NCBI GenBank assembly: GCA_026392845.1
Contig: JAPLBJ010000006.1
Location: forward strand, 1-41,462
Direction of reading: 5' to 3'
Length of the DNA: 41,462 nt
DNA from: Actinomycetota bacterium
GTDB taxonomy: Bacteria; Actinomycetota; Actinomycetes; Nanopelagicales; Nanopelagicaceae
Part shown: positions 1,268-37,375 of the stretch, piece by piece
Layout: each line of letters starts with the position of its first letter
How positions within the stretch are numbered: the stretch's first letter is position 1
Notes under the pieces: generated by a model
The model's input: the letters and a program-made list of their open reading frames with translations, nothing else
Told to the model about the DNA's origin: nothing
Database searches by the model: none
Made by a program: the position numbers and the translations under genes

Positions 1268-2026
1268 ATGGAGCAGCTAACACTCTCAGTGGATTGCGGT
1301 GGCTTGGGTATCAAAGCTTCAGTACTCGATAGTGCTGGAACGATGAGAGCCCAGGCCATTCGCATTTCTACGCCCTATCCACTTTCGCCAACTCGTTTGA
1401 TAGAAACGATTGTTGATCTCTCGAAATCATTACCGGCAGCCGATCGAGTCAGTGTTGGCATGCCAGGAATGATGCGCCACGGTGTTGTTGTTTCAACTCC
1501 TCATTACATAAATACTGCAGGACCTCGAACACGAATGGATCCGCAACTAAAAGCTGCCTGGGATGGCTTTGATATGCGCGAGGGTCTAACGCGCGCACTG
1601 GGAAAACCAACACTTGTTCTCAACGATGCAGAAGTTCATGGGGCAGGCGTTGTTGCAGGATCTGGTTTTGAAGTTGTACTAACTTTAGGTACAGGACTTG
1701 GATGCGCAGTATTCGATGGCGGAAAACTAGCGCCACATATCGAACTCTCTCATGCAACGATTCGCCGCAACGAAACTTTTGATAGTTGGATTGGTGAACA
1801 TCAACGTCGCTTACTAGGAGATTCTTTTTGGTCTCGTCGCATCAAAGCAATGGTCGATGAATTGCGCCCAGTCTTTCACTGGGACCGTCTGTATTTGGGT
1901 GGCGGAAATTCACGCAGAATAAAAGATTCAGTGATTCACAAATTGGGCGATGATGTGGTGATTGTTCCAAACGAAGCAGGAATTATTGGGGGAGTTCGAG
2001 CATGGAATTTGCCCGGAGATAATTAG
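1268..2026 (+). CDS. ROK-family sugar kinase, polyphosphate glucokinase-like
   Basis: A 252-residue ROK-fold kinase that probably phosphorylates glucose, using polyphosphate and/or ATP. The phosphate-binding motif DCGGLGIK is at residues 9-16, the catalytic base Asp is in LND (residue 120), and the second glycine-rich loop LTLGTGLG is at 138-145. The length and the spacing of motifs match actinobacterial polyphosphate glucokinases (about 250-270 residues), not the longer ATP-glucokinases. The usual ExGH motif reads ELSH (159-162), so Gly is replaced by Ser. The gene follows groEL by 18 bases and converges with whiB, sharing four bases at the stop codons. Substrate and phosphoryl donor are inferred from family resemblance; another ROK hexokinase activity is possible. 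Confidence 0.75.
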   Translation: MEQLTLSVDCGGLGIKASVLDSAGTMRAQAIRISTPYPLSPTRLIETIVDLSKSLPAADRVSVGMPGMMRHGVVVSTPHYINTAGPRTRMDPQLKAAWDGFDMREGLTRALGKPTLVLNDAEVHGAGVVAGSGFEVVLTLGTGLGCAVFDGGKLAPHIELSHATIRRNETFDSWIGEHQRRLLGDSFWSRRIKAMVDELRPVFHWDRLYLGGGNSRRIKDSVIHKLGDDVVIVPNEAGIIGGVRAWNLPGDN

Positions 2027-2325
2027 GAAGCGCTAGAAATAGCTGCTGGCATACCCGAATCAATAATCGCTAAGCGATCATCTTCAGAAAGACCGCCCCA
2101 TATTCCGTAAGGCTCTTGAACAGCAAGTGCATGCGTGCGGCATGCAAGCATTACTGGGCAGGATGCGCAGACAGCCTTTGCTGCATTTTCACGATTGCGA
2201 CGGCGAGGTCCACGTTCTCCATCTGGATGGAAAAACATCTCTGCCGGCAAATTGCGGCAGGCGCCCTCGTACTGCCAATCCCAATTATCAGTAGTGGGTT
2301 GGGGTAAACGCGAAATTTCAGCCAT
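2023..2325 (-). CDS. WhiB-family iron-sulfur protein, WhiB3-like
   Basis: A 100-residue WhiB-like protein, an actinobacterial transcription factor that carries a [4Fe-4S] cluster, senses redox or NO and binds the primary sigma factor. The four cluster cysteines are at residues 23, 53, 56 and 62 (C-x29-CxxC-x5-C), followed by the turn GIWGG at 74-78. The segments MFFHPDGERG and ACRTHALAVQEPYG closely resemble mycobacterial WhiB3, which also neighbours groEL1. I chose the ATG at 2325 (MAEISRL), because the longer in-frame start at 2367 adds a non-conserved leader. After GIWGGLSEDDR the tail is acidic or neutral and ends PAAISSAS, so the basic DNA-binding tail of most WhiB proteins is absent. 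The cofactor and the role in regulation are inferred from the family. Confidence 0.88.
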   Translation of the reverse strand: MAEISRLPQPTTDNWDWQYEGACRNLPAEMFFHPDGERGPRRRNRENAAKAVCASCPVMLACRTHALAVQEPYGIWGGLSEDDRLAIIDSGMPAAISSAS

Positions 2326-2436
2326 GCGCCCACTATACAACCGCTTCATAGGTTGTTCAAGTAGCAACGGGTCAGAAGTTGTTCATGAGCGTGTTTTGGA
2401 GTGGTGAGTTCTCTCACTTAGCGACACCATAGGCAC

Positions 2437-3312
2437 ATGGAAGAGCTACTCACTGTCGCGGGGGTAGCCAGAAGGCTAGGGATTGCACCAGCCACCTTGA
2501 GAACATGGGATCGCCGTTATGGCCTTGGTCCAACAGATCATGAAGAGGGAAACCATCGAAAGTATGGCCCCCAGGATGTTGCGCGACTCATGGTCATGCG
2601 AAGACTCATAGCTTCAGGAGTCTCCCCATCCGATGCATCAAAACAAGCGCTCGAACACGAGAGCGCAGTTGAAATTCATGCAATGGCAATAGAGTTTCGA
2701 GATCGAAGTGAATTTGTAGATGCAATTTATTCCTCCGCGATGGCACTAGATCGCGACTTTGTCGTAACTTTTCTTATGGAAGATATAAAAAAGAATGGCG
2801 TCATTCGCTCCTGGCAGGAAGTCATTGTTCCAGTGCTTACATTAGTTGGTCAGGATTGGGAAAGAACGGGTCGAGGGATTGAAGTAGAACATCTGCTCAC
2901 TGAAATTCTCAAAACAATCTTCCGTGGAAAGGCAACAAGGAATTTCACACCAAGAAACCCAAGACCAATTGTTTTAGCATCAGTGGGCGAGGAAATGCAC
3001 AGCCTTTCGCTACATGTATTAGCAGCAGCGCTTGCTGAAAAAGAGATCGAGAGTTATCTACTTGGCTCTAGAACTCCGCATGAAGCTCTCTGTGCAGTTG
3101 TAACTCGCTCAGCACCACCGGCGATATTCCTATGGGCCCAATTACCAGCGCATGCAAACCCAAAATTCTTCAACGATCTTCCAGTGGTGCGGCCAGCGCC
3201 TCGCATTGTCCTTGGGGGACCAGGTTGGGATCCAAAAGATTGTTCCGATGTTGCAGTTGTACATGATTTACCGAGTGCATGCCTTGAAATCGAGCGTGCA
3301 GTAGGGCTCTAA
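2437..3312 (+). CDS. MerR-type regulator with CarH-like cobalamin-binding domain (putative light/B12 sensor)
   Basis: A 291-residue transcription factor. Residues 1-72 are a MerR winged helix (TVAGVARRLGIAPATLRTWDRRYGL, then HRKYGPQDV). Residues 75-165 form a helical cap and 175-291 a Rossmann B12-binding domain. The middle domain has Trp141, Glu151 and His152, the W-x9-EH motif that covers adenosylcobalamin in CarH/LitR photoreceptors. His188 in GEEMH sits where CarH has its lower-ligand His (36 residues after the EH His, against 35 in Thermus CarH). Strand motifs LLGSRTP and RIVLGGPGW fit a B12 fold. In CarH, light breaks the Co-C bond, tetramers fall apart and DNA is released. The gene stands alone between divergent whiB and guaB. 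The target genes are unknown; the domain call is firm, the light-sensing role is inference. Confidence 0.8.
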   Translation: MEELLTVAGVARRLGIAPATLRTWDRRYGLGPTDHEEGNHRKYGPQDVARLMVMRRLIASGVSPSDASKQALEHESAVEIHAMAIEFRDRSEFVDAIYSSAMALDRDFVVTFLMEDIKKNGVIRSWQEVIVPVLTLVGQDWERTGRGIEVEHLLTEILKTIFRGKATRNFTPRNPRPIVLASVGEEMHSLSLHVLAAALAEKEIESYLLGSRTPHEALCAVVTRSAPPAIFLWAQLPAHANPKFFNDLPVVRPAPRIVLGGPGWDPKDCSDVAVVHDLPSACLEIERAVGL

Positions 3313-3340: not shown

Positions 3341-4471
<1,131 letters not shown>

Positions 4472-19499: not shown

Positions 19500-20582
19500 T
19501 TACTTAATGCGCTCTCCAGTTGTTGCGTTGAAGAGGTGAATTATTGCTGGGTTTACGCCAACAGTAATTGTTTGTCCTGGCTTTGGTGGGCTCTTTGGAT
19601 CCCAGCGAACAATTACTTGTGCGCCTTCATCAGATGCATTAGCAAACTTAACTGATGTATCAGCAGGCTTTCCGTAAACGAATGCATCAGCACCGAGCTC
19701 TTCAACAACTTCTACGAGAACGTGGAAGCCTGATGTTGCTGGTATGAAGCCTTCTGGACGAATACCAACTGTGACGGTGGCGCCAGCACTTGCAGGAACT
19801 GCAACAGCTAGATCTCCAAGCATTGCTTTTCCGCCACTGACTGGAGCATTGAGCAAGTTCATTGCTGGTGATCCAATAAATCCTGCAACGAATGCATTTA
19901 CTGGATTTTCATAAAGATTACGAGGAGTATCAACTTGCTGAAGAAGTCCATCCTTCAAAACTGCTACGCGATCACCCATGGTCATAGCTTCAACCTGGTC
20001 GTGAGTTACATAAACAGTTGTGATACCGAGGCGGCGTTGTAGCGCTGCAATTTGTGTACGAGTTGCTACGCGCAACTTCGCATCAAGGTTTGATAGTGGT
20101 TCATCCATAAGGAATACCTGTGGTTCGCGAACAATTGCGCGGCCCATAGCAACGCGCTGACGTTGTCCACCTGATAGAGCTTTTGGCTTGCGCTCTAGGT
20201 ATGGCTCAAGGTCAAGCAACTTTGCTGCTTCAAGAACACGACGACTGCGCTCTTCCTTAGGTGTTCCTGCAATTTTGAGAGCGAATCCCATGTTCTCCGC
20301 AACTGTCATATGTGGGTAAAGCGCATATGACTGGAAAACCATTGCAATGTCGCGATCTTTTGGTGCAACATTTGTTACATCACGATCGCCAATCAAGATA
20401 CGTCCGTTATCGATCTCTTCAAGTCCTGCCAACATACGAAGTGATGTTGACTTACCGCAACCTGATGGTCCAACGAGCACAAGAAATTCACCATCATTGA
20501 CAGTGAGGTTGAGCTTGTCGACTGCAGGTGCAGTTGTTCCTGGATAGATGCGTGTAGCGGCTTCGAATACAACTGATGCCAT
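19500..20582 (-). CDS. Sugar ABC transporter ATP-binding protein (MsiK/UgpC/MalK type, CUT1)
   Basis: A 360-residue ATPase that energises carbohydrate-uptake-1 importers. Walker A GPSGCGKST is at 38-46, the signature LSGGQ at 136-140, Walker B with Asp160/Glu161 in FLMDEPLSNLD, and the H-loop in VYVTHDQVEAM. After about residue 235 a C-terminal OB/TOBE-like domain with VGIRPEGF is typical of the MalK/UgpC branch. No permease or sugar-binding protein gene is adjacent, so it may be a shared ATPase like Streptomyces MsiK, serving several importers. It starts with ATG after AAGGAGAT, in a 132-base divergent promoter region with inverted repeats, and ends at the terminator shared with icd. Confidence 0.9.
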   Translation of the reverse strand: MASVVFEAATRIYPGTTAPAVDKLNLTVNDGEFLVLVGPSGCGKSTSLRMLAGLEEIDNGRILIGDRDVTNVAPKDRDIAMVFQSYALYPHMTVAENMGFALKIAGTPKEERSRRVLEAAKLLDLEPYLERKPKALSGGQRQRVAMGRAIVREPQVFLMDEPLSNLDAKLRVATRTQIAALQRRLGITTVYVTHDQVEAMTMGDRVAVLKDGLLQQVDTPRNLYENPVNAFVAGFIGSPAMNLLNAPVSGGKAMLGDLAVAVPASAGATVTVGIRPEGFIPATSGFHVLVEVVEELGADAFVYGKPADTSVKFANASDEGAQVIVRWDPKSPPKPGQTITVGVNPAIIHLFNATTGERIK

Positions 20583-20599
20583 TTTTATATCTCCTTATC

Positions 20600-20617
20600 C
20601 GGGCAGGTACGTGCCCG
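20600..20617 (-). promoter_or_regulatory. Inverted repeat in the ABC ATPase leader
   Basis: CGGGCA and TGCCCG flank GGTACG, 17 bases before the ATPase start codon on the minus strand. A second small inverted repeat, CAAGG-GGTT-CCTTG, lies at 20640-20653. Either could be an operator or an mRNA hairpin near the ribosome site. No factor can be named. Confidence 0.3.
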
Positions 20618-20699
20618 ACGGTCCGAGGATTAAGGCGTCCAAGGGGTTCCTTGAGCGTGAAGGAAGGCTAGGGCATAACACCCATAAAAGGGAAGTGCC

Positions 20700-22029: not shown

Positions 22030-23037
22030 ATGACCGCTAAAGCCATGAAGAGAGTGCTCTCGGGAATTCAGCCGACTAGCGACTCATTCCATCTTGGAAA
22101 TTACTTAGGTGCGGTCAAGCAATGGGTTGATCTTCAAGATGGCCATGATGCTTTTTATTGCATTGTTGATTTACACGCTCTAACAATTGAGACTGATCCG
22201 GCACACTTTAGAAAACGCACATTGGCTTCAGCAGCGCAGTTATTAGCTCTTGGTATTTCACCTGAAAAATCAACTCTCTTTATTCAATCTCAAGTGCCAC
22301 AGCACAATCAATTAGGTTGGATTATGGAATGCCTCACTGGCTTTGGTGAAGCAAGCCGTATGACACAGTTCAAAGACAAGTCTTCTAAGTCTGGTTCTGA
22401 TCGCGCAGTTGTTGGACTCTTTACATATCCAATGTTGCAAGCAGCCGACATACTTTTGTATCAAGCTGATTACGTGCCAGTCGGCGAAGATCAACGTCAA
22501 CATATCGAACTTACACGCGATTTAGCGCAGCGATTCAATACTAAGTATGGACAAACCTTCCAAATCCCGGATGCTTATATTCTAAAAACTGCAGCGAAGA
22601 TAAATGATTTACAAGATGCAACCTCAAAGATGAGTAAATCTTCTGGTTCTGTTGCCGGTGTTATTGAAATCATGGATACACCAGAATCGAATGCAAAGAA
22701 GATAAAGAGTGCGACTACTGATGCTGGTAGAGAAGTGCGCTTTGATGAAAAAGAGAAGCCAGGAATTAGTAATCTACTCACCATTCATAGTGCGCTCTCT
22801 GGACAATCAATTCAGGCTATTGAAAAGGATTTTGAAGGAAAAGGCTACGGTGATTTCAAATCTGCCGTAGCTGATGTAGTTGTTGAATATTTCAGACCTA
22901 TACGTGCTCGCGCCTTAGAACTCCTTGAAGATGAGGCGAACTTGCTTTCAATTCTTCATGATGGTGCCGACAAAGCCCACGCTGTTGCATCACAAACAGT
23001 CGCGCAGACCTATGCAAATCTTGGAGTAGTGAAGTGA
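22030..23037 (+). CDS. trpS: Tryptophanyl-tRNA synthetase
   Basis: Charges tRNA-Trp. It is a class I synthetase of 335 residues, the normal length. The HIGH-like motif HLGN is at 21-24, [17 protein letters not shown] is the usual N-terminal signature, and KMSKS is at 200-204. [20 protein letters not shown] is the tryptophan/ATP site. Its last codons overlap the GTG start of the next gene by four bases (GTGA), so a periplasmic-type binding protein is translationally coupled to a housekeeping synthetase. Confidence 0.97.
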
Positions 23038-24035
23038 AGAGAGTTGGTCTCCTTTCCCTTCTTCTAGTTTTAGTTTTTCCAACACTTTCACTACCAACTC
23101 AGGCTGCAACGCTAAATCTCATTGGCATCGCTTACGACATTGGTGGACGCGGGGATAGTGGTTTCAATGATGCTGCAGGTTCTGGTGTCGACCGAGCGAT
23201 CAAAGAATTAGGCGCCAAATTTGAATCTACAGTTACTTTAGGTACTCAGGGCGATCGTGAAACACGACTGCTCTCTCTTATTGAAAAGAGTGCGAATCCG
23301 ATAATTGCAATTGGTGGTGACTATGCACCAGCAGTTGAAACACTTTCAGACAGATTTCCTAATACGCAATTCATACTTGTTGATGATGCCTCTGTTGCAC
23401 ACCTGAATGTGACATCGATTATTTTTGCTGAAACTCAAGGCGGGTATCTAGCCGGTGCTGCTGCAGCCCTTGCAAGCAAAAGTGGCAAAGTGGCGATGAT
23501 TGTCAATGAAAAGCAGAGCAAGCTTTTTTGGAATGGCTTCAATGTTGGTGTTAGAAATTCAAAAAAAGCGGTCAAAGCATCAATAGCCTTTGCAAATAAG
23601 AATTATGCCGCAACAGCAAAAGACCTAATTGAATCAGGCGTTGATGTTATTTACTTAGGTGTTCGCGGATCTTCAACAGATGTACTTGATGAAATTACAA
23701 AGTTGAACCTAGCGAAGAATCGTAAAAAAGGTATGCCTATGGCTTATCTCATTAGCGTTACCCCTGATCAATTCTTGCGTGTGACTCCGCAATCAAAAGA
23801 ATTTTTATTGGCCAGAATTGAGAAAAGAGTTGATACCGCAGTATTCAATCTTGCAAGCGCTGCTGTAAATGGTTCTCAGTACTTAGATATCATTGATCAG
23901 AGTGCTGGAATTTATGGCCATATATTTGGGATATCTGATGATGGAATCACTATCGACATTAGAAGTAAATTACTCGACCCTTTTTCCAAGCAAATTGCTC
24001 AAGCTAAGAAACAAGCATTGAAAGTAAAGGATTAG
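23034..24035 (+). CDS. BMP-family ABC substrate-binding protein (nucleoside-type), orphan copy
   Basis: A 333-residue exported binding protein of the basic membrane protein (PnrA-like) family, whose members bind nucleosides. Residues 1-25 are a signal peptide ending TQA-A. The ligand-region motif [10 protein letters not shown] (37-46) is the classic BMP pattern, and the C-terminal part has [17 protein letters not shown]. There is no Cys in the signal-peptide region, so it is not a standard lipoprotein. The start is GTG at 23034, overlapping trpS. No ATPase or permease sits directly with it; the transporter at 27322-31174 is the likely partner, perhaps with a different substrate range from the paralogue at 26166. 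It converges with ribokinase by a four-base overlap. Confidence 0.85.
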
Positions 24036-24997
24036 TTAGTAATTCCTTTGATAATTTCTTGAGCCTCTTCCTTGGAACTATAAGAGGATTGAGTGCCACG
24101 ACGGGTGACGCTCTTAGATGCACATGCACACCCAAGCTTTACTGCTAATTCTTCGCTCAATCCACTAGCTAGCCCAAATGCGAAAGCGCCAACGAACGAA
24201 TCTCCTGCACCAGTTGTATCTATCGCATTTACCTTCGGCGAAGGGATTCGAATAATGTCTCCCGTTGATGTTGTAAAAACCGCACCATGCTCTCCTAAAG
24301 TTACCAATATTCTTTTGCCTAGTTGATGCGCTAAATCTTTAATAGTCTCATCGTTATCAGGGGAGCGCTTTTGTGGATGCATTGCAGCAAATTCATGTTC
24401 GTTAGGTGCAACCCAGTCACTGGCTGCAAGTAGCTCTGCAGATAATGGAGCAAAGGGTGCTGGATTAAGAATTGTTATAATTCCTCGTGCTTGTGCAGCG
24501 CGAAATGCAGCAGCAGTTACTTCCTGTGGAATTTCTAGCTGTCCAATAACAATATCGATATCTTTTATTGATTCAATTGCATGCGTTGCTTGCGCTGGTG
24601 TCATCGCATTATTTGAACCTGGGACGCAGATGATGCGGTTAGAACCATCTTTTTCTACCCATATTGGTGCAACTCCACTCGCTCCAGCAGTGCGTGCAAC
24701 AAAAGTGGTGTTGATTCCTTGATCTTGAAAGTTTTTTAGCGTTGAATCACCAAATACATCATCACCTAAAGTGTTGACCATATATACATTGGCACCCATG
24801 CGAGCGGCCATCACAGATTGATTTGCACCTTTTCCGCCAAAACCTAAAGCAAATGAATCGCCAATAAGAGTTTCCCCACTTTCAGGGACTGTATCTATGT
24901 AGGTAATCATGTCCATCATGGTGCTACCAACTACAACAACTGTTGGGAGTTTTCTGTGCAAACTATCAACCACGACTTTAGCCTCCGAAAGACTCAT
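24032..24997 (-). CDS. rbsK: Ribokinase (PfkB family)
   Basis: Phosphorylates D-ribose to ribose-5-phosphate, using ATP. The protein (about 321 residues) begins at VVVVGSTMMDMITYIDTVPE, with the sugar-binding GFGGKGANQSVMAARMGA, the PfkB substrate strand ILNPAP and the catalytic Asp in DTTGAGDSFVGAFAFGL. The ATG at 24997 follows AAGGAA on the minus strand and is preferred to 25021. It is divergent from the LacI regulator across a LacI-type operator. In this setting it would use ribose freed by the nucleoside hydrolases. Some PfkB relatives phosphorylate nucleosides or deoxyribose, so the exact substrate is an inference. Confidence 0.85.
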   Translation of the reverse strand: MSLSEAKVVVDSLHRKLPTVVVVGSTMMDMITYIDTVPESGETLIGDSFALGFGGKGANQSVMAARMGANVYMVNTLGDDVFGDSTLKNFQDQGINTTFVARTAGASGVAPIWVEKDGSNRIICVPGSNNAMTPAQATHAIESIKDIDIVIGQLEIPQEVTAAAFRAAQARGIITILNPAPFAPLSAELLAASDWVAPNEHEFAAMHPQKRSPDNDETIKDLAHQLGKRILVTLGEHGAVFTTSTGDIIRIPSPKVNAIDTTGAGDSFVGAFAFGLASGLSEELAVKLGCACASKSVTRRGTQSSYSSKEEAQEIIKGITN

Positions 24998-25042
24998 GTG
25001 TTCCTTACGTAGACGAAACACTAGCCCAAGAGATACGCTCTC

Positions 25043-25056
25043 TGCAATCGTTTACA
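25043..25056. promoter_or_regulatory. LacI-family operator between ribokinase and the LacI gene
   Basis: TGCAATCGTTTACA fits the TGNAANCGNTTNCA pattern of LacI/GalR operators, with CG at the centre. It lies between the divergent starts at 24997 and 25091. The identical 14 bases recur at 32684-32697. The LacI protein encoded beside it is the natural ligand, implying autoregulation and control of the transporter/Qng1 operon and ribokinase. Confidence 0.7.
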
Positions 25057-25090
25057 TCAAAAATGTAAAACTCGGAGAGGAGATTCCTAA

Positions 25091-26173
25091 TTGCCTGTAG
25101 TCACAATTACTGACGTGGCAAGCCGAGTTGGCGTATCGGTTGCAACTATCTCCAGATTTCTCAGCGGTGGAAATGTTCGCGAAGAGAAGAAGATTCGTTC
25201 TGTAATTCAAGAATTGAATTATCGTCCCAACATCGCAGCAAGAAATCTAAAATCAGGTCGCAGCGCAACTGTTGCAATCATTGTTCCTGATATTTCAAAT
25301 CCATTTTTCGCAGCCCTTGTGCGTGGTGCCGAAAAAGCATCGGGTGATTCTCTGATGGCAGCAATCGTCAATACTGATTCAAATTCAGAACGAGAAATAA
25401 ATGCCCTTGCCAATCTTTACGGTCGAGTCGATGGAGCAATCTTCGTTCCGACTAAAGAGAGCGATCATAAGAATGGACTTTCCCATTTTGGCCGCCCGAT
25501 TGTCTTCGTGGATCGCTACTTGCAGAAAGAAAAGAAGTACGACACGGTTTTAGCTGACAATGCACGCGGTGCAGAGTTAGCCGTTGAGCACTTCGCCTCA
25601 GAAGGTCACACCAAGATTGCGATTATTTCTGGGCCCCTTGATTCAACACCTGGACGTCAGAGAGAAGAAGGGTTTAGAAAAGCTCTCGATAATTCAAAAA
25701 TTGGAGCAAATCCCAACTACGTAATCGTTTCAGACTTCACGCAAGCAGGTGGGTATGCAGCAATGAACCAATTATTAGATTTAGCAGAGCCACCCACCGC
25801 TGTTTTCTCTTCAAATAACCTCATGACCTATGGCGCACTCAATGCTCTCAAAGATAGAGGGGTGAGAGTTCCGAGTGATATTTCATTCATTGGCTTTGAT
25901 GATTTTGAACTTTCTACTCTCATAAGTCCAAAAATTACCGTAATCAATCGTGATGCCGAAGCTCAGGGAGCTGAAGCGATGCGAGCACTTATGTGGCGCC
26001 TCGAGAATATGGATTCAAAAATCTCGAAACACAGCGTCATCCCCGTAAATTTGATCAAACGCGAGTCAGTCACAATTCCACGCACGTGGGATTTGCAGAA
26101 CTCACATAAGGTCAAAGAACGACAGTCCCAAACGAGTGATCACTCAAATAATAAGGAGAAGGTAAATGAATAA
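25091..26173 (+). CDS. LacI-family transcriptional repressor of the nucleoside-uptake operon
   Basis: A 360-residue repressor with an N-terminal helix-turn-helix (TITDVASRVGVSVATISRFLSG, then LNYRPNIAARNLKSGRS) and a periplasmic-binding-like effector domain (IIVPDISNPFFAALVRGAE, IFVPT, DNARGAELAVEHF, SFIGFDDFELSTLISP). The start is TTG at 25091 after GGAGAGGAG. The last codons run past the effector domain with a hydrophilic tail and overlap the next gene's ATG by eight bases, so repressor and transporter are translated together. The effector is probably ribose, a nucleoside or a breakdown product; sequence does not tell which. Its likely operator is at 25043-25056. Confidence 0.9.
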   Translation: MPVVTITDVASRVGVSVATISRFLSGGNVREEKKIRSVIQELNYRPNIAARNLKSGRSATVAIIVPDISNPFFAALVRGAEKASGDSLMAAIVNTDSNSEREINALANLYGRVDGAIFVPTKESDHKNGLSHFGRPIVFVDRYLQKEKKYDTVLADNARGAELAVEHFASEGHTKIAIISGPLDSTPGRQREEGFRKALDNSKIGANPNYVIVSDFTQAGGYAAMNQLLDLAEPPTAVFSSNNLMTYGALNALKDRGVRVPSDISFIGFDDFELSTLISPKITVINRDAEAQGAEAMRALMWRLENMDSKISKHSVIPVNLIKRESVTIPRTWDLQNSHKVKERQSQTSDHSNNKEKVNE

Positions 26174-27218
26174 CCCAATAACAAAGAAGAAGGGCTTTAT
26201 CGCTGCTGCAGTTGCATCAGTTCTAGCTCTTTCTTTCATGACAGCTGTAGCTCCATCGGCTACTGCTGCAGGAGAGAAAATCACAAAGATCGGTATTGCT
26301 TACGATCTTGGTGGACGCGATATCCCTGGCTTCAACCAGTTGGCATATTTCGGTGCACGTGACTATGTCGCAAAAAATAAGGGCGTAAAGATCCAAGAGC
26401 TACAAGCTGCACTCTCTGATACAGATGCAACTCGCGCTGAGCGTCTACGTCTACTTGCAAGTGCTGGTGCAAACCCAATTATTGCTGTGGGATTCACATA
26501 TGCATCATCAGTAGCAATTGTCGGCAAGGAATTCCCAAAGGTTAAGTTTGGTGTTGTAGATGATTCAACAGTTAAGCTTCCAAACGTACTTGGAATTACA
26601 TTTGCTGAACACGAAGGTTCATACCTAGTGGGAGCAATTGCAGCCATGAAGTCAAAGTCAGGCAAAGTTGGCTTTATTGGTGGAGTTCAAACACCACTTA
26701 TCGTGAAGTTCAACGCTGGCTATGCAGCTGGTGCTAAGAAGATCAATCCAAAGGTTAAGGTTCAATCTGTTTACCTTTCAATCTTCCCTGACTTCTCTGG
26801 CTTCAACGATCCTGCAAAGGGCGAAGAATCAGCAAAGGGTATGTTTGATAACGGAGTAGATGTTGTCTTCTCAGCAGCTGGTGGTTCAGGCGCTGGTGCA
26901 CACAAGGCAGCAATCGCTAAGACAGGCGTATGGTCAATTGGTGTAGATGCTGATGAGTATTACTTCCCATCAAATGCTTCATACAATGAAGTCATCCTTA
27001 CTTCAATGCTCAAGAACGTCAACGTTGGTGTTCTAGACATGATCAATTCAATGGCTAAGGGAACTTTCAAGGCTGGCGAAAAGAACTTCAATCTATCTAA
27101 CGGCGGAATTGGTTACTCAACCGCTGGTGGAAATATTGATGCAAAGACTAAGGCGACAGTTGAGTCACTTATCAAAGATATCAAGGCAGGAAAAATTAAA
27201 GTTCCTACAAAGATGTAA
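26166..27218 (+). CDS. BMP-family ABC substrate-binding protein of the nucleoside transporter
   Basis: A 350-residue exported binding protein, the first gene of the ABC cassette. Residues 1-35 form a signal peptide (KKK, hydrophobic core, ATA-A cleavage) with no lipobox Cys. The start of the mature part is KITKIGIAYDLGGRDIPGFNQ; this differs from the usual RGDxSFN pattern of the paralogue at 23034 (IPGFN in place of DSGFN). Later it has GVDVVFSAAGGSGAGAHKAA and SIGVDADEYYF, typical of BMP ligand clefts. The ATG at 26166 has a strong AAGGAGAAG site. A stable stem-loop downstream (27258-27287) separates it from the ATPase gene and may raise its own expression. Its ligand (nucleosides, perhaps queuosine) is unproven. 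Confidence 0.88.
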   Translation: MNNPITKKKGFIAAAVASVLALSFMTAVAPSATAAGEKITKIGIAYDLGGRDIPGFNQLAYFGARDYVAKNKGVKIQELQAALSDTDATRAERLRLLASAGANPIIAVGFTYASSVAIVGKEFPKVKFGVVDDSTVKLPNVLGITFAEHEGSYLVGAIAAMKSKSGKVGFIGGVQTPLIVKFNAGYAAGAKKINPKVKVQSVYLSIFPDFSGFNDPAKGEESAKGMFDNGVDVVFSAAGGSGAGAHKAAIAKTGVWSIGVDADEYYFPSNASYNEVILTSMLKNVNVGVLDMINSMAKGTFKAGEKNFNLSNGGIGYSTAGGNIDAKTKATVESLIKDIKAGKIKVPTKM

Positions 27219-27257
27219 TTTTTGTAAAAACTTTAGTTAGCTTCAAAGATTCTTGGT

Positions 27258-27287
27258 GGAGTCGTCGATATAGATGTCGACGACTCC
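27258..27287 (+). other. Stem-loop between the binding-protein and ATPase genes
   Basis: GGAGTCGTCGA (27258-27268) pairs perfectly with TCGACGACTCC (27277-27287) around an eight-base loop: 11 base pairs, GC-rich. It lies in a 103-base gap within the operon, and no U-run follows. It may be an mRNA-stabilising or partial attenuating hairpin that gives more binding protein than transporter, a common arrangement in ABC import operons. Confidence 0.65.
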
Positions 27288-27321
27288 GCTAAGGATATTT
27301 AGATCACGAGAAAGGTAAAAA

Positions 27322-28836
27322 ATGGCGAGTGCAGTTGAGATTAAGGGTATTGAGAAGAAATATCCCGGAGTTGTTGCAAACCACAACGTAACTCTCACTG
27401 TCCAAAAAGGGCACATTCATGCGATCATTGGTGAAAACGGTGCCGGTAAGTCCACTCTCATGAAGATTCTCTACGGAATGGTCCGACCTGATAGCGGAAC
27501 CATTTCAATTGATGGAAAAGATGTGGTCTTGAAATCCCCACATGACTCAATAGCTCTTGGCGTTGGCATGGTCCACCAGCATTTTATGCTTGCAGATAAT
27601 GCAACTGTTTTAGAAAATGTAATTTTAGGTAGCGAACCCGTAAGTTTTGGTGGCGTAATTCAACACACTGCAGCTAGAGATAAACTCATTGAAATTACAG
27701 AAAAGTATGGTCTTGATATTGATCCAGATCAAAATGTTGCCGAATTGAGTGTTGGAGAGCGCCAACGTGTTGAAATCTCTAAAGTGCTATTTAGAGGTGC
27801 GCAGATTTTGATTTTAGATGAACCAACAGCTGTTTTAGTTCCACAGGAAGTCGACGAACTTTTCTCGAATCTCAAAGATTTGACTGCCCATGGGCTCACA
27901 ATTATTTTCATTTCACACAAGCTCGATGAAGTTTTAGCGATTGCTGATGCAATCACGGTGATGCGAACAGGAACGACAGTTGCCTCTGTTGACCCAAAGA
28001 GTGCAACAAAGAAACAACTTGCCGAACTTATGGTCGGACGCGAACTTCCAAAGCGTCGCGAAGTTTCAACCCAGCCAAGTAATAAGAAAGTATTAGAAAT
28101 AGAAAATGCTTCTTATTCAGCACCTGATGGTCGCGAAATCCTTCATGAAATTTCACTCGCTATCCATGCTGGAGAAATAGTTGGCCTGGCAGGCGTAGAA
28201 GGAAATGGGCAATCCGAACTTATTGAGTTGATAATGGGATTGGTAAAGACAAGTGGTGGCACTGTCTCAATACTTGATGAAGATATTGCAGAGATGTCAT
28301 CGAGAAAGATTAGAGATTCAGGGGTTGGATACATTCCCCAAGATCGTCAACGTGATGCACTCCTGATGTCGGCTCCATTGTGGGAGAACAGAATTTTGGG
28401 ACATCAATCAACGCAGCCAATGTCTAATGGTCTATGGATTAATAAAGGTAACGCGCAAAAAGATTCAGAGCGCCTTGTCAAAGAATTCGATGTACGTACT
28501 CCAAGTATTAATGTGATGGCTGGAGCACTTTCGGGAGGAAATCAACAAAAGTTTATTGTGGGAAGAGAATTGAGCGGAGATCCGCATCTACTCATTGCCG
28601 CACAACCAACTCGTGGTGTCGATGTTGGCGCACAGGCTCTGATCTGGAATTACCTTATTGAGGCACGCGTTGCGGGTATGGCAATTCTTTTGATTTCAGC
28701 TGACTTAGATGAATTATTCAATCTCTCTGATCGCTTAGCCGTAATTTCTGGTGGCCGAATAGTTGCCATCTTGGATCCAGAAAAGACTACTTCTGAAGAG
28801 CTTGGATTAGCTATGACTGGAGAGAAGATCGCATGA
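27322..28836 (+). CDS. Nucleoside-type ABC transporter ATP-binding protein (two ABC domains)
   Basis: A 504-residue ATPase with tandem ABC domains, as in BMP/simple-sugar importers (YufO-like). Domain 1 (about 5-235) has Walker A GENGAGKST (37-45), the signature LSVGERQRV and Walker B ILILDEPTAVL. Domain 2 (about 250-500) has a degenerate Walker A (GVEGNGQSE), a normal signature LSGGNQQKF and a Walker B ending AAQPTRGVD without the catalytic Glu, a usual asymmetry in this subfamily. The ATG at 27322 lies 103 bases after the binding-protein gene; the end overlaps the first permease (ATGA). It would drive nucleoside import across the single membrane. Confidence 0.93.
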   Translation: MASAVEIKGIEKKYPGVVANHNVTLTVQKGHIHAIIGENGAGKSTLMKILYGMVRPDSGTISIDGKDVVLKSPHDSIALGVGMVHQHFMLADNATVLENVILGSEPVSFGGVIQHTAARDKLIEITEKYGLDIDPDQNVAELSVGERQRVEISKVLFRGAQILILDEPTAVLVPQEVDELFSNLKDLTAHGLTIIFISHKLDEVLAIADAITVMRTGTTVASVDPKSATKKQLAELMVGRELPKRREVSTQPSNKKVLEIENASYSAPDGREILHEISLAIHAGEIVGLAGVEGNGQSELIELIMGLVKTSGGTVSILDEDIAEMSSRKIRDSGVGYIPQDRQRDALLMSAPLWENRILGHQSTQPMSNGLWINKGNAQKDSERLVKEFDVRTPSINVMAGALSGGNQQKFIVGRELSGDPHLLIAAQPTRGVDVGAQALIWNYLIEARVAGMAILLISADLDELFNLSDRLAVISGGRIVAILDPEKTTSEELGLAMTGEKIA

Positions 28837-29939
28837 AACTAAGTAAAGTATTTTGGGGAATAGTCGCACCACTTGCCGCAATTGCTACTTCGCTACTTCT
28901 TGTCAGTGGAATTCTGCTTCTCAAAGGTAATCCTCCATACGAGACCCTCAAGACAATGATTGATTACGGTTTTACGCCTCGAAATATTGTGGCTGAACTC
29001 AATATCGCTTCTAGTTATTACATTGCTGGAGTAGCAGCTGCAATCGGATTCAAAATGCTGCTTTTCAATATAGGTATCGATGGTCAATATCGTATGGCGG
29101 TATTTTTTGCTGCCGTTGTTGGCGGAGCAGTCACCCTTCCACCAATCTTGCATGTAACGCTCATCATCATTGTTGGTGCAGTAGTTGGCGGCCTCTGGGG
29201 AAGTATTGCCGGGTATCTTAAAGTAAAACGAGGAATCTCTGAAGTTATTAGCAATATTATGCTCAATGTTATTGCTGGCGGTTTAGTTGCATTTCTTTTG
29301 CAGCCAGGCCGTCTTGGTGAACAAGCAGATGGTTCTAATAACTTGAATACTCCGATCCTTGCAACATCTGGTTGGATGCCAACCATCAAATTCCTTGATG
29401 GCGAGATTCATAGCTTTCTAATTGTTTCTGTATTTATTGGAATTGGTTATTGGGTGCTACTCAACAAGAGCGTATTTGGTTTCAATTTGCGTTCAACAGG
29501 TATGTCATTCCGAGCAGCACGCGCTGGTGGAGTGAATGCACCGCGAATGATCTTTGTAACAATGGCGCTCTCTGGTGCGATTGCAGGTCTTACCGGCATG
29601 GGAACACTCTTGAGCGAAACACATAGTTACAGCATCTCTTTCCCTTCAGGGTATGCACTAACTGGATTAGCACTTGCATTGCTTGGACGTAACCACCCAG
29701 TGGGTATTGCATTTGCAGCATTTTTCTGGGCTTTCCTAGATCGCTCTGCAGGTGTATTGGATCTCAACGGTGTACCTCGCGAAATCATCACAATTATGCA
29801 AGGAACAATTGTTCTCTCCATTGTTGTTGCTTACGAACTGATTAAGCGAATCAACCAAAAACAAGAGCAACGGTTGGTTGGAAATGCAGGCATTGAACAG
29901 ATATCTGTGCCAAAGGCAGAGAGTGAGAAAAACGCATGA
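28833..29939 (+). CDS. Nucleoside-type ABC transporter permease 1
   Basis: A 368-residue membrane protein of the BPD_transp_2 family (YufP-like), one half of the transport channel. It has about nine to ten hydrophobic stretches, including the first at residues 8-30 and the family segments FKMLLFNIGIDGQYRMA, GGLWGSIAGYLKVKRGISEVISNIMLN and GYALTGLALALLGRNHPVGIAFAAFFWA. The region RSTGMSFRAARAGGVN is the cytoplasmic EAA-like loop that meets the ATPase. It starts and ends with four-base ATGA overlaps with its neighbours, the mark of a tightly coupled operon. Confidence 0.92.
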   Translation: MKLSKVFWGIVAPLAAIATSLLLVSGILLLKGNPPYETLKTMIDYGFTPRNIVAELNIASSYYIAGVAAAIGFKMLLFNIGIDGQYRMAVFFAAVVGGAVTLPPILHVTLIIIVGAVVGGLWGSIAGYLKVKRGISEVISNIMLNVIAGGLVAFLLQPGRLGEQADGSNNLNTPILATSGWMPTIKFLDGEIHSFLIVSVFIGIGYWVLLNKSVFGFNLRSTGMSFRAARAGGVNAPRMIFVTMALSGAIAGLTGMGTLLSETHSYSISFPSGYALTGLALALLGRNHPVGIAFAAFFWAFLDRSAGVLDLNGVPREIITIMQGTIVLSIVVAYELIKRINQKQEQRLVGNAGIEQISVPKAESEKNA

Positions 29940-31174
29940 GTATTCTTACGAAGGAAAAATTAAAGAAAACAGTTACTTCTCCCTCAAGAATTGCAATTAT
30001 TGTTGCTGTAGTTCTCATAGTCGCATCAATCGTGCGCCGAATAACTGGGGCTGATGACATCACATCTGCTGGTGCTACAGGTGCAACTTTGCGCTTCACA
30101 ATCCCACTCCTTATGGCAGGTTTAGGCGGACTTTGGGCGGAGCGCTCTGGTGTAATCAATATTGGTCTTGAAGGAATGATGATTGCAGGAACATGGTTAG
30201 GCGCATGGTTTGGCTTCCTGCACGGTCCATTGGTCGGATTTATCTGCGCCGCAATTGGTGGAGCTCTTATCGGTCTTTTTCACGGATTTCTTGTTGTAAA
30301 GATTGGTATTGATCAGGCAGTATCTGGATTAGCAATAAATCTTTTAGCATTAGGAACAGCACGATACTTATCTAGTATTTACTTTGCGCCTAATGGTGGA
30401 GATATCAGTCTTTCCCCACAAGTAAAACAGCCAGGAGTATTTTCAGTACCAATACTTAGTTCGTTTCTTGCAGATCTCAATGCTAAGAACATTATTGTGA
30501 TTTCAGATGCGGCGGGCATTCTTGGTGGATTTGTAACTGAAGTTTCATATGCAACAGTTCTACTATTTCTACTAGTTCCAATATCGACATGGTTGTTATG
30601 GCGCACACGTTTTGGGCTACGTCTTCGCTTCTGCGGTGAGAATCCAGTTGCAGCAGAATCTCTAGGTGTTAAAGTTTTCCGCACTCGCTATATCGCATTA
30701 GCAATTTCAGGAATGTTCGCATCCCTTGGCGGGGCTTACTTATGTATGGTTTCAGCAAGCGTTTACCGTGAAGGTCAGACTGCGGGCCGAGGATTTATTG
30801 GGCTTGCAACAGTAATCTTCGGCAACTGGAGGCCAACGGGAGTTCTAGCTGGATCATTCCTATTTGGGTTTACTGATGCACTACGTGTTCGCCAGTCGAC
30901 TTCAGTGCATGCAATTCTTCTAGTCATTGTGATCTTGGGGCTCTTATTTGCGATGTGGAAGTTATTCCAACGCAATTACAAGGTCTTTGGAATATCGGCA
31001 CTATCTTCTTTGATAGTGGGAGTGATATTCCTTAAAGTTCCAAAGATCCCAGACGAGTTTGTAACATTCTTTCCAAACTTGGCAACAATCCTCGTTCTTG
31101 TCTTACTGGCGCAGAAACTTCGACCACCTGCAATGCTCGCAGTTCCTTACCGTGAGAGAGAAGAAGGACACTAG
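29936..31174 (+). CDS. Nucleoside-type ABC transporter permease 2
   Basis: A 412-residue membrane protein (YufQ-like), the second channel subunit. Typical stretches are LLMAGLGGLWAERSGVINIGLEGMM, VVKIGIDQAVSGLAINLLALG, the coupling loop RLRFCGENPVAAESLGVKVF and GRGFIGLATVIFGNWRPTGVL. It has about ten hydrophobic segments and a C-terminal extension of two to three further helices (from about 330) compared with shorter homologues. Its TAG stop abuts the ATG of the Qng1 gene with no gap, so transporter and glycosylase are translated in direct succession. Confidence 0.92.
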   Translation: MSILTKEKLKKTVTSPSRIAIIVAVVLIVASIVRRITGADDITSAGATGATLRFTIPLLMAGLGGLWAERSGVINIGLEGMMIAGTWLGAWFGFLHGPLVGFICAAIGGALIGLFHGFLVVKIGIDQAVSGLAINLLALGTARYLSSIYFAPNGGDISLSPQVKQPGVFSVPILSSFLADLNAKNIIVISDAAGILGGFVTEVSYATVLLFLLVPISTWLLWRTRFGLRLRFCGENPVAAESLGVKVFRTRYIALAISGMFASLGGAYLCMVSASVYREGQTAGRGFIGLATVIFGNWRPTGVLAGSFLFGFTDALRVRQSTSVHAILLVIVILGLLFAMWKLFQRNYKVFGISALSSLIVGVIFLKVPKIPDEFVTFFPNLATILVLVLLAQKLRPPAMLAVPYREREEGH

Positions 31175-32170
31175 ATGTCACAATCAGAATTTTGGGACTC
31201 ATCTGTACTCAAAAGCTTGAAACCAGTATTAGAAAAATCAACTCTCGTTCGTGTCAACGAAGAGAAGATAGTTGAAGTTGCAAACTGGATGGCATATGAA
31301 GAATTTGCCAAACCAGATGGTTCAATGCTCTTTGATTTTGGCAATGATTCTGACTTTCTCATGGATTACACATTGGTAGTAAATACTCTGAACTTCGCTT
31401 TTACTGATTTCAAAACTGGCGTGAAATTTGAGACAGATTACATGGGCAAGAGATGGTGTGACAGTGAAGCCATGAATGCATGTCTACACCGCGCCCGAGC
31501 AGCGGGAATTCCTTTTTTCGATGGTGAATACCTTGCGAAAATAACTCGTGAGGAGCTTGCAAAGATATTTAGTGGAACTATTGAGATGCCTATGCTCGAT
31601 GAGCGCGTAACAATTTTGCGCGCTGTTGGAGAGAAACTTGTTGCAGATTACAAAGGAAAATTTCACAACTTTGTTCGCTCATGCACTCCCAAGCTCTATG
31701 CAAATGGTGATGGACTTTTAGAGCGTCTTACGAAGGAATTTCCACGTTTTGAGGATATCTCTACCTACAAGGGCGATCAAGTTCAGATTTATAAACTTGC
31801 TCAACTAGGTATTTGGATGATGCACCTAACGCTTTCACCACGTAAAGCGTGGAAATTAGAAGATGCGCATTTACTGACTGCTTTTGCTGATTACATTGTT
31901 CCAGTCGGTATGCGCGTAATGGGTATCTTTGAATACGCACCCGAACTTGAGAAGCAGATCAATAGTCTGGCAATTGTTGAGCGAGATAGTGATGCTGAAA
32001 TTGAAATTCGCGCAAGCTCGCTGTATGCCATCGCTCGACTCACTGATGAGGTAAATGCTCGCAGAAAGGGCCTAGAGCCTCTACTGATGCCGCAAGTAGA
32101 TTTTCGACTCTGGAAGTCTTATCACGCAACGCATTGGCCACATCACCTCACCGTAACAACGATGTACTAA
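31175..32170 (+). CDS. Queuosine-salvage N-glycosylase (Qng1/DUF2419 family)
   Basis: A 331-residue cytoplasmic enzyme of the queuosine salvage family (human QNG1, formerly C9orf64), which hydrolyses queuosine-5'-phosphate to free queuine for tRNA-guanine transglycosylase. Conserved segments by comparison with the human protein: TLNFAF (71-76), FPRFEDIS (189-196), YKLAQL (206-211), the probable catalytic region FADYIVPVGMRVMG (237-250), DAEIEIRASSLYAI (273-286), DFRLW (309-313) and a final TMY. It is translated from an ATG touching the stop of the preceding permease, with GAAGGA as ribosome site, and is the last gene of the LacI-SBP-ATPase-permease-permease operon. This suggests that queuosine or other nucleosides enter through that transporter. 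No tgt or queuosine synthesis gene is in the window. The family call is strong; the substrate is inferred. Confidence 0.88.
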   Translation: MSQSEFWDSSVLKSLKPVLEKSTLVRVNEEKIVEVANWMAYEEFAKPDGSMLFDFGNDSDFLMDYTLVVNTLNFAFTDFKTGVKFETDYMGKRWCDSEAMNACLHRARAAGIPFFDGEYLAKITREELAKIFSGTIEMPMLDERVTILRAVGEKLVADYKGKFHNFVRSCTPKLYANGDGLLERLTKEFPRFEDISTYKGDQVQIYKLAQLGIWMMHLTLSPRKAWKLEDAHLLTAFADYIVPVGMRVMGIFEYAPELEKQINSLAIVERDSDAEIEIRASSLYAIARLTDEVNARRKGLEPLLMPQVDFRLWKSYHATHWPHHLTVTTMY

Positions 32171-32620
32171 TTACATCTCTGATTGCCATTGCAGGAGTAT
32201 CGCAAAGCCCTTCTCAAAGTTATCTACAACCTCACCAACATCTTCTACGCATCCGCGTACAAAGAGGTTGATTCCTTTTCCATCAATCATGTTGCGATCA
32301 CGAATGACGCGTGTATCTGTTACTAAACCGACTATTCCCTTCTTTGTTGAGTCACTTTGCATCGCGGCCCAGAAAATTCCAATTTCTGATGCAGTTCCAT
32401 CATCAACCATCGGTCCATCAAGGAGTGCAAGCACAGCATCAGCTTTGAGAACTTGCTCTGAATCAATTTTAAAAATAAATTCTGGAGTCACTGGATCTGG
32501 TAATGGAATCTCATGTGGAACAAAAACTTCCATCCCTGCTGCTCGCATTTTTGCTGCGCACTTATCAATAAAGTCTCTTTCATAGGGAGTAAAAAGTGGT
32601 CCTGCAAAATAGATGCGCAT
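32171..32620 (-). CDS. Nucleoside 2-deoxyribosyltransferase-like protein
   Basis: A 149-residue enzyme of the nucleoside 2-deoxyribosyltransferase/DNPH1 fold. The N-terminal motif MRIYFAGPLFTPYERDFID and the active-site segment LLDGPMVDDGTASEIG, with the catalytic Glu after the DDGT turn, fit the family. Members exchange bases between deoxyribonucleosides or hydrolyse deoxynucleotides. It starts at ATG after a TAGGAG site. It converges with the Qng1 gene, stop against stop (32170/32171), and is divergent from the MFS gene across a LacI-type operator. It probably acts on imported deoxynucleosides, but transferase and hydrolase cannot be told apart here. Confidence 0.82.
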   Translation of the reverse strand: MRIYFAGPLFTPYERDFIDKCAAKMRAAGMEVFVPHEIPLPDPVTPEFIFKIDSEQVLKADAVLALLDGPMVDDGTASEIGIFWAAMQSDSTKKGIVGLVTDTRVIRDRNMIDGKGINLFVRGCVEDVGEVVDNFEKGFAILLQWQSEM

Positions 32621-32675
32621 GTAAAAACTCCTAAGAAAGTAATGGTTTACCTAGACAGCAGTATGCCTTGCGACA

Positions 32676-32681
32676 TAGACT
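32676..32681 (+). promoter_or_regulatory. Possible -10 element of the MFS/nucleoside hydrolase operon
   Basis: TAGACT, eight positions upstream of the LacI-type operator start, would place the transcription start around 32688, inside the operator. Repressor binding would then block initiation. There is no convincing -35 box. Confidence 0.3.
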
Positions 32682-32683
32682 TC

Positions 32684-32697
32684 TGCAATCGTTTACA
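32684..32697. promoter_or_regulatory. LacI-family operator between the deoxyribosyltransferase and MFS genes
   Basis: TGCAATCGTTTACA is identical to the element at 25043-25056. A weaker copy, GTAATGGTTTACC, sits at 32640-32652 nearer the divergent gene. The pair would let one LacI repressor control both divergent units. Confidence 0.7.
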
Positions 32698-32716
32698 GTT
32701 GTGAAACCGGGGATTG

Positions 32717-33901
32717 ATGCTCAGTTCGTACGCGCAAATAATGCGCAAACCACATGCACTGGCGACCCTTGGTTACGGAGCTATTGGGCGATTGCCCTTA
32801 GCAATGAATCCAGTTGCAATTGTTCTTCTGATATCTGCGACAACAGATTCTTATGCATATGCAGGTCTTGCATCTGGAAGTTATACATTGGCCAGTGCTC
32901 TTATAGGTCCTCGAATCGGAAGACTTGCAGATCTGCATGGAAGCCGCAAAGTACTTATCCCAATTACTTTAGTTCACATTCTTTCGATGTGCGCACTCAT
33001 AAAATTGAGTTCATCTTCAATAATCTTTATTTTAATTTTCGCTGCTTCCTCTGGTGCATCCTTGGCAAATATTGGAAGCTTTACCCGAACACGTTGGGGT
33101 CGCTCCCTTCCTGATAATAAAGAGCTCAACTCGGCGCTCTCTATTGAATCCGTTCTAGATGAGTTTTCATTTGTTGCCGGGCCGGCATGCGCAGGCTTGC
33201 TATTTGCAAAGTTTGGTCCAAAATTCGCATTGATTGCAGGGCTACTCTTCCTCTTTATTGGCGCATCAGGACTTTCACTAACAAGTGATAAGAATGATTT
33301 CTCGAAGAATCCTGAAGAACATAAACACGGACTTCTAAAGATTGTTTTGGTCAAACCGCTGCTGATCTCACTTATTGCACTCGGTTGCATCTTTGGCGGA
33401 AACACAATTGCCGTTCTTGCAGTGGCTAAAGAGGCAGGTTTTGAAAGCCAAGGTGGTTTACTCATGGCAATCTATTCACTCGGAAGTCTTGTTGCGGGCA
33501 CGCTCTATGGCCTAAAGCATTGGAAAAGTTCAAATTCGCATCGTTATGCCCTTGCGCTCTTCTTCATGACAATTGCAACATTTGGTCCAGCTGTAATTCA
33601 TATATATAGCATTTTACCTTTTCTGCTTATGGTTTCAGGTGTAGCAATTTCTCCAACTCTTATTGCCGCTAACGCGCTTCTCAAAGATATTGTTCCCAAT
33701 GAGCGGCTAAACGAAGCTTTTGCATTCCTTGGTGGAGCGATTTCTATTGGTATTACTCTGGGAAGTGCGATTTCAGGGACCTTTGTTTCTATAACAGGAG
33801 CATGGAATGGCTTCTATTTCGTCTCGGGATGCGCTGTAATTGCCACATGCGTTTCATTCTTCGGCTTAGTCACGCAGAAGAAGGTTCTCATACATGAATA
33901 A
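32717..33901 (+). CDS. MFS transporter, putative nucleoside/base carrier
   Basis: A 394-residue major facilitator superfamily protein with about twelve hydrophobic segments and the loop signature GRLADLHGSRK (about 68-78) between helices 2 and 3, the usual D-x-x-G-x-R-x pattern. It begins the operon with nucleoside hydrolase and the phosphorylases, so it probably moves nucleosides, bases or ribose, in or out. I chose the ATG at 32717 rather than the TTG at 32714, with GGGGAT as a weak ribosome site. It ends in an eight-base overlap with the hydrolase gene. The substrate is unproven. Confidence 0.8.
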   Translation: MLSSYAQIMRKPHALATLGYGAIGRLPLAMNPVAIVLLISATTDSYAYAGLASGSYTLASALIGPRIGRLADLHGSRKVLIPITLVHILSMCALIKLSSSSIIFILIFAASSGASLANIGSFTRTRWGRSLPDNKELNSALSIESVLDEFSFVAGPACAGLLFAKFGPKFALIAGLLFLFIGASGLSLTSDKNDFSKNPEEHKHGLLKIVLVKPLLISLIALGCIFGGNTIAVLAVAKEAGFESQGGLLMAIYSLGSLVAGTLYGLKHWKSSNSHRYALALFFMTIATFGPAVIHIYSILPFLLMVSGVAISPTLIAANALLKDIVPNERLNEAFAFLGGAISIGITLGSAISGTFVSITGAWNGFYFVSGCAVIATCVSFFGLVTQKKVLIHE

Positions 33902-37257: not shown

Positions 37258-37375
37258 CTGGTAGTTACTCCTCTTTACTTGAAAATGCTGGTCTAAGAGC
37301 GCCAATGCTAACGAAACTAGGCGCAATTACAAGAGTAATTCATAGCAACCCTTCTCACCATAATCATTCTTCAGA

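Follow-up and report, generated by a model that had tools for sequence, protein, structure and literature searches.

Is the cobalamin-domain regulator encoded at this locus a CarH photoreceptor, and which gene does it control? Carotenoid genes are the usual targets of the light-sensing B12 regulators described so far. The regulator gene lies in a window of 41,462 nt, which is the whole stretch of DNA analysed (contig JAPLBJ010000006.1 of GCA_026392845.1, Actinomycetota bacterium, Nanopelagicaceae; coordinates are those of the forward strand), from a freshwater actinobacterium. A first-pass annotation had described the product as CarH-like and placed its gene next to guaB, with no carotenoid gene adjacent; indeed, no crt (carotenoid) gene was found anywhere in the window. 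The features discussed below are listed in Table 1.

Table 1. Positions of the regulator gene, its neighbors, and the protein and promoter features.
Feature	Position	Strand	Basis
Regulator ORF	2437..3312	+	MerR-type HTH, four-helix bundle and Rossmann cobalamin-binding domain
W141-x9-E151-H152, adenosyl-face motif	2857..2892	+	Aligns with TtCarH W131/E141/H142; invariant in 64/64
E186-M-H188-S-L-S191; ExH kept, Gly of HxxG replaced	2992..3009	+	H188 invariant in 64/64
W233, where the classic B12 motif has the Ser of SxL	3133..3135	+	W in 64/64
G260-G-P-G-W264, subfamily hallmark	3214..3228	+	Alignments of family and class-wide homologues
whiB, divergent WhiB3/WhiD-type iron-sulfur regulator gene, proposed direct target	2023..2325	-	Solved-structure match
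guaB (IMP dehydrogenase), incidental neighbor	3359..4471	+	Downstream in 56/64 family loci
~25-bp element, pseudo-palindrome ACAACC-N8-GGTTGT plus TTCAAG, proposed operator	2337..2361	.	Conservation; absence without the regulator
whiB -35 hexamer TTGAAC, inside the element	2355..2360	-	TTGA in 77/77, then ~17-bp spacer
whiB -10 hexamer TATAGT	2332..2337	-	Promoter alignment
Likely regulator promoter TGGTGA-N17-CACCAT	2402..2430	+	Inference; conserved in 30 loci of the genus

Domain organization and fold of the regulator

The open reading frame starts with ATG, encodes 291 aa, and ends 46 bp before guaB. Pfam assigned MerR_1 (PF13411, E 2.4e-15) to the N-terminus, which bears out the earlier placement of a MerR DNA-binding domain ahead of the B12 region, B12-binding_2 to residues 95-162 (E 5.8e-6, above the cut-off), and B12-binding to residues 178-269 (E 3.2e-6; 27.4 bits, slightly under the cut-off of 32.1). 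The closest solved structures were Thermus CarH/LitR (3whp, 1.8e-17; 5c8d, 2.2e-17), together with a C. thermophilum MerR protein (8jbs). The AF2 model (pLDDT 81) gave full-length Thermus thermophilus CarH (TtCarH, 5c8d) as its top Foldseek match (E 1.4e-15), and its cobalamin domain matched photocobilin 8j2x with a Z of 19.0 and TtCarH with a Z of 18.2 (rmsd 2.7-3.0 A over 190-200 residues). The NCBIfam CarH model NF052513 spanned the regulator from end to end, with a score of 89.8 bits, below its cut-off of 400. These results establish the family of the regulator and its CarH/photocobilin fold.

Residues of the cobalamin pocket

W141, E151, H152, and H188 align with W131, E141, H142, and H177 of TtCarH, its four AdoCbl residues (the numbering of the PDB sequence is +5 relative to the alignment), and all four were invariant in 64/64 family homologues, which share 42-75% identity with the window protein. 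The match is thus no chance event, and the W-x9-EH motif and H188 stand where the first-pass annotation had read them, with the CarH spacing. Among the 30 whiB-linked homologues from 16 other families, 27 carried all four residues, one had Phe for Trp, and two showed losses. H188 is the presumed lower axial Co ligand, and the alignment to TtCarH would place it in one pocket with the EH pair.

The four residues of the earlier note on the pocket therefore stood, but several other CarH pocket letters that had gone unnoticed there were changed. The position of the HxxG glycine, 191, was A in 52, P in 11, and S in one of the 64 homologues; position 233 was W or Y nearly throughout the class; and the GG of the B12 motif is followed by PGW in the regulator, with the distances between the motif elements equal to those of the published CarH motif. 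The equivalent of TtCarH His132 is Glu142 (mostly E/A/Q in the family). This replacement need not matter, because the position is Arg in CtMerR and Gln or Tyr in the light-responsive photocobilins (PMC11796333).

Because the tail motif is altered (Gly191 to A/P/S and Ser233 to Trp), cobalamin binding is possibly different or absent. If it were lost, or if another ligand such as heme were held as in the AppA SCHIC domain, the protein would be constitutive or driven by a partner like CarA; this would suit the replacement of HxxG and SxL, the Trp in the tail cleft, the match of the AppA SCHIC domain to the AF2 model (Z 17.0), and the existence of two whiB-linked members without the B12 residues. 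We regard such a loss as unlikely, however, since the 64/64 invariance of W141/E151/H152/H188 would be surprising if no cobalamin-Ado ligand were bound. In regards to the two whiB-linked members, L193 has lost all four B12 residues and L184 has lost Glu151 and His188, and both are possibly CarA-like, B12-independent proteins.

Classification of the regulator

The published definition of CarH requires two signature motifs (PMC8156234). The regulator carries the CarH Wx9EH motif (64/64), whereas of the classic motif ExHx2G-x41-SxV/T-x22-27-GG it keeps ExH, GG, and the spacing, with A/P/S in place of Gly and Trp in place of Ser. The regulator is therefore not a strict CarH, since that definition needs both motifs. 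From the signature of light-responsive cobalamin domains (PMC11796333), GxxW (G138-W141), EH (E151-H152), and GxxxP (G210-P214) were present; GxxH was absent, position 185 being Glu in 59/64 homologues.

In the tree, the actinobacterial "GGPGW" branch, which includes the Streptomyces LitR-like proteins, was separate from CarH, from CtMerR, and from the canonical CarH-like protein found in one member of the family; its support was 100/98, and the long branches call for caution. Class-wide homologues show the same hallmarks, and the "GGPGW" group is therefore a stable subfamily. These results indicate that the regulator belongs to the actinobacterial LitR/CarH branch as a distinct "GGPGW" subfamily and is not a CarH in the strict sense. 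The label "CarH-like" accordingly holds for the fold, the Ado-face signature, and the clade with Streptomyces LitR-like proteins, but not for HxxG, SxL, GxxH, or the tandem 11-bp operator. A canonical CarH-like protein (W, EH, HxxG, SxP) is encoded at L206 (4233-5150, minus strand) in genome G263 of the family, which has no whiB-linked regulator; its gene neighbors encode FAS1-type repeats, and no carotenoid genes are among them.

Conserved pairing with a divergent whiB gene

The best solved match of the whiB product was Mycobacterium tuberculosis WhiB3 (1.4e-32; WhiB1, 5e-13). In the family, all the loci that could be read (63/63) have this gene in divergent orientation to the regulator; the 64th locus lies at a contig end, which leaves the pairing unreadable. 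The position next to guaB proved to be incidental, and the conserved neighbor is whiB; the guaB count in Table 1 covers the family loci as far as their sequence extends. As a functional partner guaB was rejected, another gene intervening in some close relatives. The divergent pair also occurred in 30/50 further class loci, from 16 other families, often between groEL and guaB.

The regulator was missing from 22 family genomes; in 15 of these this WhiB was missing too, and three of the genomes without both are single-contig. Five of the losses (L223-L227) are true deletions because groEL abuts guaB on one contig. A MAG contig titled Bifidobacterium breve (L035) carries a 73%-identical copy of the regulator-whiB locus, and this record is probably mislabelled.

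The arrangement of regulator and whiB is thus conserved in much of the actinobacteria and, judging by our searches, apparently undescribed. Literature searches, which covered mostly non-subscription papers, gave nothing that connects WhiB to CarH and light, or WhiB3 to vitamin B12 and a photoreceptor; for WhiB and MerR in combination with cobalamin and divergent orientation they yielded a single, unrelated genome survey. This is no proof of novelty.

Candidate operator in the whiB promoter

The whiB promoter of the window consists of TTGAAC, a 17-bp spacer, and TATAGT, and the element overlies the -35 hexamer and the spacer. In the promoter alignment, the spacer mostly reached 1.3-2 bits, compared with ~0.05 bits for the interior of the -10 hexamer. 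The ATG of the regulator lies ~7 nt after the -10 of its own likely promoter.

The element was found with six or fewer mismatches in 64/64 family loci and with eight or fewer in 13 of the 17 pairs from other parts of the class, where unrelated stretches score 10-14; the remaining four loci had 10-11 mismatches, so the element is not demonstrable in them. It was at chance level (10-14 mismatches) in all six whiB promoters of family genomes that have lost the regulator, and absent (11-12 mismatches) from 8/8 WhiB3-type genes without an adjacent regulator in other families. Fisher p values for the two comparisons were 8e-9 and 5e-4, respectively; phylogeny is ignored in both, and they serve as a guide only. 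The presence of the element therefore depended on the regulator gene.

The first-pass annotation had called for a genome-wide search for binding sites. In 15 genomes, the full element occurred once in each of the 12 that carry the regulator (G099 has a second, weak copy) and in none of the three without it, and the reversed-pattern control gave 0; the element is thus essentially unique in each genome searched, within the whiB promoter. Only the full element was searched in this way because the dyad alone (ACAACC-N8-GGTTGT with one mismatch) matched no more often than its reversed-pattern control and was discarded as a target finder.

The element could instead serve another factor, such as WhiB itself in autoregulation or a global regulator, with its correlation to the regulator a by-product of deletions. 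A single deletion often removes adjacent genes, as where groEL abuts guaB in L223-L227, and in most of the six control loci the regulator deletions could have taken the element along. L150 alone, which keeps whiB and has lost the regulator, has recognizable -35 and -10 hexamers while the core of the element has decayed. Together with its absence from the eight WhiB3-type genes without a regulator neighbor, this argues against another factor, which we consider quite improbable. Given the conservation of the element and its loss without the regulator, whiB is the most likely target of the regulator, with positions 2337-2361 as its site of action. The target, left open in the first-pass annotation, can thus be narrowed to whiB by the comparative data on pairing, element, and absence.

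The operator of CarH consists of three or four tandem 11-bp nAnnTnnACAn repeats (PMC8156234). Between 2326 and 2436 no such tandem array was found, a single match lying at 2353-2363 on the minus strand. As in classical MerR systems, the dyad lies within the spacer of the target promoter; the lengthened spacer of those systems (19-20 bp) was absent, the spacer being 17 bp in the window and ~17-18 bp elsewhere. The pseudo-palindrome suggests that the protein sits on DNA as a MerR-like dimer and not in the tandem-repeat manner of CarH. A second TGAACA half-site lies at 2380-2385 (minus strand), 26 bp from the operator copy, and TGAACAA-like copies occur in several class-wide whiB promoters, with three in L143.

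These data also bear on whether the protein could be a strict CarH orthologue that acts on carotenoid genes and for which whiB and guaB would be mere bystanders. The fold and the Ado-face motif are what such an orthologue would show. Nevertheless, it would fit neither the separate monophyletic branch (support 100/98 on long branches) nor the differing motif letters, nor a candidate operator that is essentially unique per genome and lies in the whiB promoter, nor the lack of crt genes in the window, and we consider it extremely improbable.

Cofactor supply and proposed mechanism

One other clear B12-binding domain was found in the genome, in a 1211-aa frame; by its size and domain alone, this is probably MetH. 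A PduO-type adenosyltransferase was present in the window genome and in 29/29 genomes, and NrdJ, an AdoCbl-using ribonucleotide reductase, in the window genome and in 20/20 genomes; AdoCbl should therefore be present in the cell. As a discriminator, this enzyme content was rejected: genomes without the regulator keep both proteins, so AdoCbl supply is non-discriminating. The argument from actinorhodopsin carries no weight either, since rhodopsin was found in genomes with and without the regulator gene.

We favor, as rather more probable than not, that the regulator is an AdoCbl-dependent, probably light-released controller of whiB that acts through the element at 2337-2361. We infer AdoCbl binding, the light response, the change of oligomeric state, and the sign of regulation. 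AdoCbl would be bound base-off, with His188 below the cobalt and Trp141, Glu151, and His152 around the adenosyl group. In the dark, the cofactor-bound regulator would oligomerize, bind the ~25-bp element and, lying over the -35 hexamer and spacer, would control whiB; the simplest way would be to block RNA polymerase. Cleavage of the Co-C bond by light would release the regulator and change the output of whiB. In CarH, an AdoCbl-bound tetramer forms in the dark and light takes it apart (PMC8156234). Repression is not certain and activation is a live alternative, because litR mutants of Streptomyces coelicolor reportedly lose light induction. The light (or AdoCbl-supply) signal would thereby be passed on to WhiB, a redox-sensitive global regulator, since WhiB3/WhiD-type proteins bind the principal sigma factor.

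The same residue and operator evidence applies to a sensor of AdoCbl supply, in which whiB would follow the cofactor level or the cellular redox state and light would be irrelevant in vivo. MetH and NrdJ make B12 supply physiologically important, and the partner is a redox regulator rather than a set of pigment genes. On the other hand, AdoCbl on a Wx9EH scaffold is intrinsically photolabile, the sister Streptomyces proteins resemble LitR, and the characterized relatives are photoreceptors (PMC11796333, PMC8156234); we give a pure supply sensor a minor but real chance.

Relation to Streptomyces LitR and other known systems

In four loci of branch members assigned to Streptomyces (by family f17 and by their similarity to named records of that genus), the divergent neighbor encodes an ECF sigma factor, and annotated records of S. 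atratus and Streptomyces KN37 place the branch member divergent from a sigma-70-family gene. In S. atratus it is followed by genes for an oxidoreductase, an SDR protein, a lycopene cyclase family protein, and a methyltransferase. This arrangement matches the gene order of the litR/litS carotenoid locus that Takano et al. 2005 reportedly described, and on that basis the proteins are presumably LitR. In S. coelicolor, LitR takes part in light-dependent expression (PMC6739363). Homologues in three other genomes (L176-L178) also lie near carotenoid-type genes. The closest relatives known are thus linked to light.

The window regulator and Streptomyces LitR share a monophyletic branch, W at the SxL position, HxLP, and GGPGW, and in both cases the divergent neighbor encodes a factor of RNA polymerase. 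They differ in the partner, which is an ECF sigma gene in Streptomyces, near carotenoid-type genes in S. atratus, and whiB without crt genes in the window. The Streptomyces proteins also have one extra residue in the W...EH spacing and no obvious whiB-type element in the intergenic region. ECF sigma factors and WhiB both act on the RNA polymerase holoenzyme. In family f15 (L201, L202, and L204), the homologue is followed by a sigma-factor gene on the same strand, ~39% identical to that of S. atratus.

Compared with TtCarH (5c8d, 5c8e, 3whp), its best Foldseek match, the regulator shows the same order of MerR domain, helix bundle, and Rossmann domain at ~25% identity and has the equivalents of W131/E141/H142/H177, but three CarH letters are missing (the Gly of HxxG, the Ser of SxL, and His132), its operator is a pseudo-palindrome instead of tandem 11-bp repeats, and its target differs as well. 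CtMerR (8jbs) and the photocobilins (8j2w, 8j2y) share the cobalamin-domain fold (Z 17.6-19) and respond to light without a bis-His mechanism (PMC11796333); the window regulator, if light-responsive, would likewise have to do without that mechanism. Unlike the regulator, the photocobilins carry a biliverdin-binding domain and CtMerR falls outside the "GGPGW" branch. The whiB product resembles M. tuberculosis WhiB3 and Streptomyces WhiD, with WhiB3 as its best solved match and its gene between groEL and guaB, whereas two genomes of family f4, probably mycobacterial (G298 and G453), have a WhiB3-type gene without an adjacent regulator or element.

We put forward more tentatively, as a proposal that may or may not hold, that the direct gating of a WhiB3/WhiD-type gene by an AdoCbl photoreceptor-type regulator is a widespread and probably early circuit of the Actinomycetia, with a remodelled tail pocket (Trp for Ser) and a single pseudo-palindromic operator, from which the litR-litS carotenoid switch of Streptomyces would be derived. 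Control by sigma-A-bound WhiB would then respond to light or B12 status. Should this branch switch WhiB, such a connection between light or B12 status and a redox-responsive global regulator may exist in many actinobacteria, the abundant freshwater ones among them. The system comes down to one promoter and one protein; it supplies a WhiB3/WhiD-type gene with a candidate input, and the tail pocket of its cobalamin domain is altered.

Other features of the window

An msiK RNA motif (RF01747, 60 bits) was found at 20585-20643 on the minus strand, directly upstream of a gene for an msiK-type ABC ATPase (19500-20582, minus strand). The region 23034-37326 looks like a nucleoside scavenging island, as judged by reading the translations: it holds genes for two BMP-type binding proteins and a sugar/nucleoside ABC transporter (27322-31174), two tandem nucleoside phosphorylase-like genes (34826-36322), and nucleoside hydrolase-like genes at 33894-34829 and 36319-37326.
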